Positions 49,412-52,889 of a stretch of DNA of 64,000 bases are shown piece after piece. This DNA is from Propionicimonas paludicola (lineage in GTDB: Bacteria > Actinomycetota > Actinomycetes > Propionibacteriales > Propionibacteriaceae): the NCBI RefSeq assembly GCF_002563675.1, contig NZ_PDJC01000001.1, positions 806,001 to 870,000 on the forward strand. The letters are read 5' to 3'. Positions within the stretch are counted from its first letter, which is position 1, and every line of letters begins with the position of its first letter. A program made the translations under genes and the position numbers. The notes beneath the pieces are model-generated. The model saw only the letters and a program-made list of their open reading frames with translations, did not search any database and was not told the DNA's origin.

Positions 49412-50743
49412 TCAGGCCGCCCATGCCTGAATGAGCTGAATGCTATCAGTTACGCGCGTCAACCCTCGTCGCGCGGGGACGAGTGACTTGCGGAGTGGAA
49501 CGGAGAACAACTCTGCGGGTCTCATTGAATCCAAAAGCCCTATCAACTGATCACGTACCTCGGTCAGGTCTGACAGTGGCGCAACCATGTCAGTGTATGC
49601 CTTAGATAGCCCCGTGGACTCCGGTGCTGATCCAACAATGTAACGGAGTCTTTGCATCGCAGAGTCGAGTTCTGCTGTCGCTGTGAACATTTGCTGGCCC
49701 GCGCTTTCAACTTCCTTGGCTGGTCCTCCAAACGCGTGGGCCGCCCGCATGGACCACAGCTGAATCTCCTTCGCAGAAGCGGTGGGGGGCAACGCTCCGA
49801 CGCTTCTCGCACCGTTGCCCAGTGCTTCTATGGCAGGTGCCATCGCTTCCGCCGCCGTGGTCATAGTGGCGAAGCCGGCGTTCATGAGTTCCATTATCTC
49901 GAAGAGCCCGAGCGACTCGTCGTCCTCTTCATCCTCGTCCGCCGTCTCGCTGTCGGTCATTGCGCCGCCAAGTTGATCCGGGGACAGTGTGGCGAGCCGG
50001 CTTTCGGCAGCTTGGTAGGACTGAACGAAGCGGTCTGCCAACCGAGCCATCGTGCGCTTCCACTCGGACGAACCTCGGTCAGAGAGCACCGCCTCCTCGA
50101 TGTTCTCCCACTGGCGCTCGGCTGAGACTCTCACAATCTGATCCGGCGAGTCATCGTGAAAAACGACGGGCGCCTTCAAGACCAACACGGGTAGGAGGAG
50201 TTCGGTGACCCCCAGCGTCCGGGCGTTCGAGTAAAATCGGTTAAACTCCATTCGGCAATTGGGGCTGTCGAGGTAGGCGGCGCTGAGGAGGGGGATGAAT
50301 ACTGTTGCACCCAGAATTTCGCTTGTGAGGCGCTCTTTCCAGATATCGCCCCACTGTATGTCGTCCTGGTCAACGAATGCGCGTACTTGCCGCCCCACCT
50401 TAGCGTAAACCAGGTGGGAAAGAAGTTCCTTGAATGGTCGAACCATGTTGAACGCGGCATCGTCGGCACGAGCGTAACTCAGGAACACCTTGATTCCCTC
50501 ATCAATCGCGATGGGCGCTGCAACTCGATCGGGCTGCAGGGGTTGGGGGGTCACGTTTCGTGTCTGCTGGCTCACCGGCAATTGGCGGGTGTTTCCGCGC
50601 CCCTTCTTGTGGCTGCTGGACAATGCGCGCCTGCTCTCGCTCGCTGTTGATGGAATCTTACGCAATGAAGGCGGACAATCTCGAGGGCTGGGCGGTTTCC
50701 CATCCTTCGGCCGGGGTTGGCGAGAGGAGCTCTCGGTGGTCAT
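49412..50743 (-). CDS. TIR-domain protein with coiled C-terminal region (putative defence effector)
   Basis: 443 residues from the ATG at 50743. Residues 1-80 are basic, Ser/Pro-rich and probably disordered. The TIR domain starts at IKVFLSYARADD (84-95), continues with RAFVDQDDIQWGDIWKERL and has the catalytic-type Glu in PNCRMEFNRF (about 166), the arrangement of NAD-cleaving bacterial TIRs. The second half holds an acidic stretch (SETADEDEEDDES) and long helices that may sense or oligomerise. No cyclase, argonaute or other partner is adjacent. The less G/C-rich composition and the DUF222 neighbourhood support acquisition. NADase activity and defence are inferred from the family. Confidence 0.82.
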   Translation of the reverse strand: MTTESSSRQPRPKDGKPPSPRDCPPSLRKIPSTASESRRALSSSHKKGRGNTRQLPVSQQTRNVTPQPLQPDRVAAPIAIDEGIKVFLSYARADDAAFNMVRPFKELLSHLVYAKVGRQVRAFVDQDDIQWGDIWKERLTSEILGATVFIPLLSAAYLDSPNCRMEFNRFYSNARTLGVTELLLPVLVLKAPVVFHDDSPDQIVRVSAERQWENIEEAVLSDRGSSEWKRTMARLADRFVQSYQAAESRLATLSPDQLGGAMTDSETADEDEEDDESLGLFEIMELMNAGFATMTTAAEAMAPAIEALGNGARSVGALPPTASAKEIQLWSMRAAHAFGGPAKEVESAGQQMFTATAELDSAMQRLRYIVGSAPESTGLSKAYTDMVAPLSDLTEVRDQLIGLLDSMRPAELFSVPLRKSLVPARRGLTRVTDSIQLIQAWAA

Positions 50744-51338
50744 CTGATCCCGCCCTATCGACGTGGGCTGGCAGAGCGTGCAGCTGCTGGCAGCGGGGCG
50801 TCCCAGCCGACGCTGGAGACGAGGAAGCGTGGCATCCTGGCCATGAGCGATGAAGTGTTCCGCGTTGATCGGGTCCAGGTGGCACGGGATCGCGCGCCAC
50901 GGAGGCCGCGGTCGAGTTGAGGTATCTCGAGATGGGTCCCTCGAGTCGGGAGCGCAGGACGCAGGGGCTCTCATGTATCGCGAGCCGCGGAAGTGGCGTT
51001 TTCGAGGATCACTGTGGGCAGGTGGCGTCGGCAGGCGCAGTCAGGGGGCTTGCGCAAGCGCTCGGCGGCGCTGGGTCTGCCATCACAGCTCGTCACCCGC
51101 CAGAGACCGGATCTGTCGGCGGAGATGGGGGGTGTGCTGCTCGCTGCGGTCTCGCTCCAGGCCTTTCGCGGCACCAAGAAGTCGGCGGGCGCTTGCGTGG
51201 GTGCACCATGTGGACGGCTCTCCTTGAGGCGTTGTAGTCCGAGAGGGAAGTGGTCACGACGGGCCCGTGTCTGGCGTGTGTGCCGAGCTCAGCGGCAGTG
51301 GGGAGGCCAGTTTCTGGCTGGCCAAGACCGGCACAGGG
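50744..51338. other. 595-bp region without a supported gene
   Basis: Between the TIR gene start and the end of the Mrr-propeller gene. Several overlapping frames are open, one of them (about 50993-51352, plus) with an Arg-rich product, but none has a ribosome binding site together with coherent protein character. It could hold decayed genes. Confidence 0.4.
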
Positions 51339-52889
51339 TCATTCGAGGCTGACTGTCTGTACCGCGTTGGTGTTGGCGTCGACAACGAAGGCGGTGCGGG
51401 TCGCGGGATCGACCGCCACGGATTGCGCATCGATGGCGAGGTCGATCGAGCGTGACTTCGCGGTCATGAGGTTCTGCTCGCGCAGCTGCGAGCCCTGGAC
51501 GACATAGAGGCGCTGCCGCTTGGAGTCCACGGCGATGCCTCCTGGCCCGGCGTACTTGGTGGCGGATTGCCTGAGAGACCTCGAGTCGAAGCTGTAGAGG
51601 ACTCCCGCAGAGTTGTTGGCGTAGATCTTATGTTCGTCCGTGTCGACCGTGATCAACGCACCCGCGTAAGCCTTCAGGTCGGACAGCCGGCGACCCGAAG
51701 CGATGGCGTAGGTGCGAATGGTTCCGTCTTCGTGGCTGATGAAGAGCCGTCCAGCCGATTTGTCTACGGCGATGTCTAGCACCTCGTGTCCGGCCGCGAA
51801 GGTCGCGATCGTTGCCTTGGTCTTGAGGCTGATCGCGTAGACCTTCTTGCCATCCCGGTCCGCGACGTACAGTGTGGACCCTCCGATGGCGACGCTGACC
51901 GGCTTTCCGGGGGTGTCGATCGTGTCCACGACAGACCTCGTCGCAATGTCGATCACTGACACATCGCCACTGACGTAGTTGGCTGTGTAGAGCCGTTTGC
52001 TGCTGGAGTCGAGAGCGACATCTAGCGGCTGCTCGCCGAGGCCTGCGATGCCGAACGCAGCCTTCGTCGACGGGGATGCCCCCAGGATGGGCAGCACAGA
52101 TCGCGTGGGTGAGGTCGTAGCGGCGCCGACCATGCTGCCTAGCACGATGACACCGATCGGCAACAACATGAGGACGCCGAGCATTGCCGCGACGAGGCCG
52201 AGTGCGGCCTGGCGTTGACCGCGACGCCGGCGAGCACGCTGGCGATGGGTAGGGGGCAGCTGCGTCCCTAGCGCTGCTTCGCGGGTGCCGCGGCACCCTG
52301 GGAAGCGGACGCAGCCCCAGAAGAGTGCCCCGGTCTGAGGGCCGCGCCGGGCCCGGCGCAACAGCATCGGCGACAGACACACAGGGCAGGCTGGTGCGCC
52401 GGACGACGCGGCTGGAGGCGGTGTGGACGGCGCGGGCTCTGTGGCCCCTGTCTGGAGGCAGGCGTTGCCGGTTGCCAAGAGCGACAGAACTGCGGGGCCG
52501 TCGAGCAGCTCGGTGCCGCTTTGGCGGGCGAACTCGACAGCCTCTCGGCTGAAGGTGCCTGAGGTGACGACGATGCCCCGGGTCGCACGGTTGGCGACGA
52601 CGAGCCCGAACAGCTCCCGAACGATCGGTGCGCCGACCTGCCACGCCTTCCAGTGCTTGCACTGCACGAAGATGCGTTCATCTCCACGACTGAGAATCAG
52701 ATCAATGCCGCCGTCCGCGCCAGGTGATGTCGGCAGAACTGTGAAGCCTTGGGCGCGGTACGCGGCACCGACGAGCTCTTCGAACTGGCGCCAGTCGAGC
52801 TGGCGCAGCAAGTCCAGACCGGCGGTGGTCGGGGCACCCACGCCCGAGACGGGCGCACTGCGGGTGCCGCCAGCTTCTTGGTCGGTCAC
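51339..52889 (-). CDS. Mrr-type nuclease - C4 zinc finger - transmembrane - beta-propeller fusion
   Basis: 516 residues from the GTG at 52889. Residues 28-140 are an Mrr_cat domain with the PD-(D/E)xK residues: LDWRQFEELVGAAYRAQGF, GADGGIDLIL (Asp63) and FVQCKHW (Gln76, Lys78). Residues 168-199 form a topoisomerase-type C4 zinc finger (CPVC ... GCVRFPGC). A basic stretch (RQRARRRRGQRQ) and one membrane helix (229-252) follow. Residues 280-516 are YVTN-type propeller repeats (RLYTANYVSGDVSVIDIATR, LYVADRDGKKVYAI, RLYVVQGSQL). Positive-inside charge puts the nuclease in the cytoplasm and the propeller outside. The start overlaps a small ORF stop (GTGA). Confidence 0.85.
   Translation of the reverse strand: MTDQEAGGTRSAPVSGVGAPTTAGLDLLRQLDWRQFEELVGAAYRAQGFTVLPTSPGADGGIDLILSRGDERIFVQCKHWKAWQVGAPIVRELFGLVVANRATRGIVVTSGTFSREAVEFARQSGTELLDGPAVLSLLATGNACLQTGATEPAPSTPPPAASSGAPACPVCLSPMLLRRARRGPQTGALFWGCVRFPGCRGTREAALGTQLPPTHRQRARRRRGQRQAALGLVAAMLGVLMLLPIGVIVLGSMVGAATTSPTRSVLPILGASPSTKAAFGIAGLGEQPLDVALDSSSKRLYTANYVSGDVSVIDIATRSVVDTIDTPGKPVSVAIGGSTLYVADRDGKKVYAISLKTKATIATFAAGHEVLDIAVDKSAGRLFISHEDGTIRTYAIASGRRLSDLKAYAGALITVDTDEHKIYANNSAGVLYSFDSRSLRQSATKYAGPGGIAVDSKRQRLYVVQGSQLREQNLMTAKSRSIDLAIDAQSVAVDPATRTAFVVDANTNAVQTVSLE

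Follow-up and report, generated by a model that had tools for sequence, protein, structure and literature searches.

The gene at 51339-52889 of the window (the whole 64,000-nucleotide stretch of DNA that was analysed) was found to encode a single protein that combines an Mrr-type nuclease domain, a zinc ribbon, one membrane helix and a beta-propeller. Sequence comparisons and structural models support a layout in which the nuclease and ribbon would be held on the inner face of the membrane by one helix, with a receptor-type propeller on the outer face. The explanation preferred here, tentatively and with slightly less than even confidence, is that the protein would be a membrane-tethered Mrr-type nuclease guarding DNA entry in the manner of SNIPE and Shield, equipped with an outer domain for docking or sensing.

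Domain architecture and predicted topology

A sequence-only reading of this stretch had proposed a single protein with a nuclease, a zinc finger, a helix and a propeller but had named no strand. Such a protein was indeed encoded by an unbroken frame of 516 codons on the minus strand (no internal stops, product of 516 amino acids), while frame 1 of the plus strand across 51339-52889 contained many stops. One full-length copy of the gene was present in the host genome. The features of the gene were as follows.

51339..52889, minus strand: whole gene, 516 codons plus stop, GTG start
52476..52808, minus strand: Mrr_cat PD-(D/Q)xK nuclease domain, residues 28-138 (PF04471 and fold model)
52656..52703, minus strand: catalytic motif, D63 to Q76-x-K78 (sequence, alignments)
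52281..52388, minus strand: C4 Zn ribbon of the topoisomerase type, residues 168-203 (PF01396 below cut-off, four cysteines)
52209..52247, minus strand: Arg-rich juxtamembrane stretch, about residues 215-227 (Lys/Arg count)
52134..52205, minus strand: predicted transmembrane helix, about residues 229-252, N side in (hydropathy, model)
51342..52067, minus strand: predicted external beta-propeller, six-bladed type, residues 275-516 (TIGR02276, 1l0q, structural model)

The residues that had been singled out as catalytic, D63 and Q76-x-K78, and the cysteines of the proposed C4 finger, C168, C171, C193 and C199, were all present exactly where they had been placed. Mrr_cat (PF04471) matched residues 28-138 with an E-value of 2.9e-30 and 105.2 bits against a Pfam cut-off of 21, and D63, Q76 and K78 were invariant in the 12 rows of one alignment (A6) and the 16 rows of another (A5), both of which leave out dead homologues. 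The match of Zn_ribbon_Top1 (PF01396) to residues 168-203 was under the cut-off (E 4.3e-6, 26.9 bits against 32); the corresponding region of the homologue from genome G025 gave 34.2 bits with the same family (cut-off 32). All four cysteines were invariant in A6, an alignment of Mrr-Zn-ribbon proteins that leaves out rows without the ribbon, and this invariance applies to ribbon-bearing rows. A profile of the cytoplasmic part matched 1y88 (E 2e-4) and a stretch of DNA topoisomerase 3-alpha (E 2.8e-4), and the same part modelled alone (pLDDT 80.6) resembled AF1548 (1y88; Z 14.7, rmsd 2.4, 111 residues), MspJI (Z 12.1, rmsd 3.1, 129 residues) and AspBHI (Z 11.2, rmsd 3.3, 129 residues).

The Arg-rich stretch and the one transmembrane helix (229-252) of the earlier reading were likewise borne out. 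Hydropathy of the window protein peaked at residues 232-250 (value 2.82), seven Lys or Arg residues were counted in the 20 residues ahead of the helix compared with one in the 20 behind it, and a helix at 215-240 appeared, with lower confidence, in the AlphaFold model. In all nine Mrr-propeller fusions found in the survey described below, four to seven Lys or Arg residues occurred in the 20 residues preceding the helix and zero to two in the 20 following it. Given the positive-inside rule, which is established knowledge, the presence of Lys and Arg before and hardly after the helix predicts an N-in/C-out topology, with the nuclease on the cytoplasmic side and the propeller external.

The YVTN-type repeats that had been read up to the end of the protein were evident from a match of TIGR02276 (NCBIfam) to residues 298-335, which at 37.4 bits was above the cut-off of 27.85, and from modelled beta-strands that extended from about residue 280 to the C-terminus. 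The archaeal surface-layer propeller 1l0q matched in sequence (E 6.5e-15, best stretch 285-375), and the propeller model resembled the NHL propeller of human TRIM2 (Z 29.6) as well as the outer domain of PknD, 1rwi (Z 27.2, rmsd 2.2, 229 residues, 20% identity). Mean pLDDT of the full protein, modelled by AlphaFold from an 18-row alignment, was 82.7, with values below 50 for segments 1-16, 146-162 (a linker) and 242-277. As modelled, the propeller belongs to the type found as the outer domain of PknD, an actinobacterial receptor kinase.

Distribution, anchoring and decay among relatives

The family survey covered 198 genomes, of which 17 matched at 1e-15 and 30 belong to the genus of the window. 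Nine Mrr-propeller fusions were noted among the 198 at the thresholds used, which more divergent fusions may have escaped, and the catalytic D-QxK was intact in six of these nine. Within the genus, where many genomes are incomplete, Mrr-propeller proteins occurred in 8 of 30 genomes and the complete domain order in five, i.e., the window's own (G000), G004, G005, G010 and G025. A search for the architecture in relatives, as proposed earlier, returned the complete order from four further genus genomes together with a ribbon-less form from a second genus, of which one genome (G162) encodes an Mrr domain with intact D and QCK, a helix and a propeller; judged from this fusion, the Zn ribbon is outside the minimal unit. 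A fusion error is excluded because four other genus genomes encode the identical full order, and a frameshift or chimeric assembly is ruled out by the recurrence of this order in other assemblies. Nor did homologues consistently lack one part, as five genomes carry all parts. The domain parts, their order and their conservation are read from the sequence itself; topology and folds are predictions.

Beyond the family, 296 genomes drawn from the class and searched at 1e-15 gave, besides the window's own, one match, to the propeller only. Among plasmid records, 365 of 72,556 matched, none of them spanning 80% of the query; the Mrr-Zn-ribbon part was covered among the matches listed (15 plasmid rows), and with a second query likewise no plasmid record covered 80%. 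Two of 50,697 phage records matched, over query residues 10-203 and 35-137 and without the propeller, and IMG/VR yielded one locus matching residues 166-212.

Anchoring of Mrr relatives was assigned by a hydropathy threshold, in a set that includes some near-duplicate rows and for which E-values refer to a small set of open reading frames. Thus, among 29 fetched rows with an Mrr match of 2e-15 or better, the predicted helix was N-terminal to Mrr in 14, C-terminal in 12, unsure in one in which a contig end cuts the sequence, and missing from two (the G018 copy and a Methylothermaceae row). Thirteen of these rows came from the genus itself; the other 16 comprised 14 with an N-terminal helix, one with a C-terminal helix (G162) and one with none. 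In contrast with these rows, 17 of 19 with weaker Mrr matches had no helix. Seven N-terminally anchored rows contained four to nine Lys or Arg residues in the 25 residues past the last helix, and the counts for both layouts thus predict a nuclease on the inside whether the anchor is N- or C-terminal. A third layout within the genus ran from Mrr and Zn ribbon through a long Pro-rich linker to a C-terminal helix, beyond which no outer domain followed (G007, G008 and G025; cut in G004). Since anchoring is common among close Mrr relatives, membrane attachment appears as a family habit to which the outer propeller has been added as a new part. The relatives with altered layouts were as follows.

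L061 6548-8017, L062 6611-8068, L058 6650-8530 and L059 2-1843 (end missing): Pro-rich-linker sister proteins (sequence)
L053 6827-8338, L054 6757-8355 and L055 6892-8400: dead-nuclease propeller homologues without Zn ribbon (sequence)
L056 6342-7702: decayed copy (G021), in which the pieces of Zn ribbon, membrane region and propeller occupy different frames; no Mrr domain was seen upstream of them

Ordinary Mrr_cat-Zn_ribbon proteins, both chromosomal and plasmid-borne, resemble the window protein in nuclease and ribbon (approximately 32-44% identity over the aligned cytoplasmic part of membrane-anchored ones), but most are anchored N-terminally and have no outer domain. One Mrr-Zn-ribbon protein with several N-terminal helices was noted between lepB and traA on a mobilizable Providencia plasmid (L091 5461-6531); this protein matched 421 of 72,556 plasmid records, 129 of them over at least 80% of its length, and 201 of the 421 were typed conjugative.

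In a tree of 23 rows, one of them badly cut and with long branches meeting, a single clade of the nine fusions was rejected (p-AU 0.0008), as was a single clade of the eight from the genus (p-AU 0.015), and the Pro-rich-linker sisters and the G018 copy fell among the genus fusions. The nine-fusion clade was allowed (p-AU 0.11) in a tree of 19 rows that had been re-cut, with four long or divergent rows omitted. No claim of convergence, i.e., of two fusion origins, is made, since rejection of the single clade vanished in the 19-row tree.

Loss of catalytic residues was evident in three genomes, G007, G008 and G022, in which the Mrr region, helix and propeller were kept, the Zn ribbon was gone and the changed residues were Q76 and K78 (G007, G008) or D63 and K78 (G022); G018 carried a dead Mrr copy without a propeller. 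A helix and propeller, with the Mrr domain out of view, were also noted at L060 1-984 (G005, at a contig end) and L057 6097-7155 (G021). A protein consisting of the Zn ribbon only, with an N-terminus like that of the Pro-rich-linker sisters, was encoded at L065 7039-7650 (G000:C1, ~137 kb) and L066 6683-7162, and is perhaps a relative that lost Mrr.

Values of dN/dS, obtained with a Nei-Gojobori script, are rough for the pairs G004/G025 and G010/G005, for which dS of the regions was high (0.68-1.50). In G004/G025, dN/dS was 0.11 (Mrr), 0.08 (Zn ribbon), 0.38 (propeller) and 0.64 (membrane region), and in G010/G005 the corresponding values were 0.05, 0.10, 0.26 and 0.54, indicating tighter constraint on the nuclease and ribbon than on the propeller and membrane region. 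For the close dead-nuclease pair G007/G008, dN/dS was 0.07 for Mrr (3 nonsynonymous and 13 synonymous changes) and 0.15 for the propeller (14 nonsynonymous and 28 synonymous). From this one pair, the dead form is apparently under purifying selection, and the low values suggest that it is probably still a working protein without cutting. That dead homologues retain helix and propeller further suggests a role independent of cutting for the outer part and perhaps for binding of DNA.

Genomic neighbourhood

A shared locus, with an acyltransferase near the gene and an enoyl-CoA hydratase within about 6 kb, was noted in six relatives, two with an intact nuclease (G004, G025) and four with a dead one (G007, G008, G022, G018). 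Several of these loci also carry a SLAC1-type channel and a ligase, which we take to be PaaK-like. In the window, the flanks of this locus, at 4.6-8.8 and 32.2-34.5 kb, are separated by about 23 kb, and the gene follows 17 kb further along in unchanged relative orientation. The stretch of about 23 kb at approximately 8.8-32.2 kb thus separates flanks that are only about 5 kb apart in G025. The G025 acyltransferase had no match at E 0.01 in the window's genome, in a search run without a positive control.

The adjoining genes in the window encode a TIR protein (49412-50974, minus strand; PF13676, E 6.1e-12) and an erythromycin-esterase-like protein. GC content was 0.60-0.61 in kilobases 49-51, the TIR stretch, compared with 0.64-0.69 across the gene, and the TIR gene is possibly a separate defence gene. 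An operon of the two genes was unsupported, given a gap of at least 364 bases, the lower GC content of the TIR stretch and the failure of the TIR protein to match any open reading frame of the fetched relative loci. The interval from 50.5 to 53.3 kb contained no promoter-like match and, on the minus strand, no terminator-like one, and Rfam gave no match between 44 and 56 kb. Pfam matches of ten window neighbours were to DUF222-HNH, TIR, erythromycin esterase, two ABC-transporter parts (one under the cut-off), two permeases, YcxB and a pyruvate-formate-lyase-like protein, with one neighbour unmatched. Surroundings of the gene in G010 and G005 differed from those in other relatives; ten open reading frames there included a transporter and a HATPase/STAS-like protein, while eight, some of them perhaps non-genes, had no match. 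A defence-island setting was not found in either group of ten.

Possible functions and relation to known systems

If the protein guards DNA entry, the Zn ribbon would bind DNA, the tether would keep the nuclease off the chromosome and place it where foreign DNA enters, the propeller would dock on or sense an envelope component or incoming particle, and incoming DNA would be cut during entry. The mode would be that of SNIPE and Shield with another nuclease, plus an outer domain missing from both. Such a role is favoured by the topology predicted for nine of nine fusions, the intact D-QxK of six, the anchoring common in close relatives, the constraint on nuclease and ribbon and the precedents of SNIPE, Shield, Zorya and a family described in 2005. 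Against it are the dead homologues (three of eight in the genus), the G018 copy, the decay in G021, the metabolic neighbourhood in six relatives and the narrow range, i.e., nine fusions among 198 family genomes at the thresholds used, none further at 1e-15 in the class draw and no plasmid record covering 80% of either query. Confidence in an entry guard was kept short of even because the dead homologues argue for a role without cutting. The sequence-only reading had inferred an outer sensor linked to a DNA-cutting domain. The domains that it named and the order of these are supported, as are an N-in/C-out topology, by prediction, and conservation in other genomes, but a plain mechanism in which the outer sensor fires the cutter is weakened by the loss of catalytic residues and Zn ribbon from three of eight genus proteins and by the metabolic neighbourhood in six relatives. 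It is doubtful that the protein is a receptor nuclease in which ligand binding by the outer propeller controls the inner DNA cutter through one helix, so that an outside signal, such as phage adsorption, a wall fragment or a DNA-uptake machine, would license local cleavage.

A receptor that acts through DNA binding instead of cutting, with the inner Mrr-like and ribbon parts tethering or signalling and the propeller reporting the state of the envelope, would explain why G007, G008 and G022 retain helix and propeller despite changed catalytic residues, and would fit the low dN/dS of the dead pair (0.07 for Mrr, 0.15 for the propeller). The window protein also exceeds the Pfam cut-off for an inactive NACHT-associated REase family (29.7 bits against 27), and Kiwa, which binds incoming DNA without cutting it (PMC12904381), offers a parallel. 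Nevertheless, this alternative is unlikely: D63, Q76 and K78 are kept in the window protein and five other fusions, the 105.2 bits for Mrr_cat are far above the score for the inactive family, and the dead copies, in which the Zn ribbon is missing as well, may serve a separate purpose. Improbable to a similar degree is a membrane-anchored, type IV-like restriction enzyme whose propeller is a mere anchor or cell-wall scaffold and senses nothing. The dead homologues, by keeping helix and propeller, suggest a role proper to the outer part, and no modified-base recognition domain was found in the window protein with Pfam or PADLOC, although the nuclease model resembles the modification-dependent MspJI and AspBHI, PADLOC mREase_IV matched residues 58-139 (E 5.3e-11; nuclease part only), the sister proteins are anchored without an outer domain and the propeller evolves faster than the nuclease. 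Housekeeping of DNA at the membrane rather than defence, whether the protein handles strands that enter by transformation or conjugation, scavenges DNA or takes part in repair, would suit the shared metabolic neighbourhood and the position of the Providencia relative with N-terminal helices between lepB and traA. However, presence in 8 of 30 genus genomes (many incomplete) and decay in another are unlike a housekeeping gene, and this role is decidedly improbable.

Nucleases that are held at the membrane and cut DNA as it enters have been described as a class only recently, and the present architecture would extend that class with an Mrr nuclease and an external receptor-like module. It would also offer a one-protein system for asking whether an outside signal controls DNA cutting, with the dead-nuclease homologues of sister species as natural controls; a receptor nuclease, if real, would be the nuclease counterpart of a receptor kinase. 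No Mrr-transmembrane-propeller protein was described among the matches listed in the literature searched, which left subscription journals largely outside, or found in the available parts of PMC7159879 and PMC13092281.

SNIPE is a membrane-bound nuclease that cuts lambda DNA while it is being injected and turns toxic once its helix is removed (PMC13190303). It resembles the window protein as one protein with a single membrane helix and a cytoplasmic nuclease, and has diverse targeting parts among its homologues, but differs in having DUF4041 and GIY-YIG and an N-terminus outside, whereas the window protein is predicted to have Mrr and Zn ribbon inside and, C-terminal to the helix, a whole propeller outside. 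Neither DUF4041 nor GIY-YIG was among Pfam matches of the window protein to E 10; a nuclease held by the membrane on its inner side, as in SNIPE, is present in the window protein by prediction only. ShdA of Shield (PMC10270631) is likewise attached to the membrane and has its nuclease domain, of restriction-endonuclease-like fold, in the cytoplasm, but it has an RmuC domain and an N-terminal helix, and the text consulted describes no outer domain for it. Zorya is proposed to sense the wall and includes the Mrr-like ZorD (PMC11890865). The likeness (PMC11890865, PMC12904381) lies in an Mrr-like nuclease and a partner membrane complex that reaches the cell wall; the difference is that ZorD is a SWI2/SNF2 helicase-nuclease recruited by ZorA/ZorB whereas the window system is one protein without a helicase. 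The window protein matched the ZorD profile (E 6.2e-8) at model positions 945-1062 of 1071 only, the ZorD helicase part was absent from it, and Pfam detected no ZorA or ZorB among the ten neighbouring proteins. Since it lacks the defining domains of SNIPE and Zorya, the window protein is a member of neither.

An analysis from 2005 (PMC1189080) predicted that guarding the cell against foreign DNA is the role of a PD-(D/E)XK family with a membrane helix. MspJI and AspBHI share the fold of the catalytic domain, but in contrast with them the window protein has a membrane helix and a propeller and no modified-base reader was found in it. PknD (PMC3322341) has the same succession of cytoplasmic catalytic domain, membrane helix and six-bladed outer propeller, and differs in having a kinase instead of a nuclease and Zn ribbon. 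No Ser/Thr kinase domain was matched in the window protein by Pfam, and an outer propeller after a single helix, as in PknD, is predicted for it. Thus, what sets the window protein apart is a receptor-type outer domain in a PknD-like layout.
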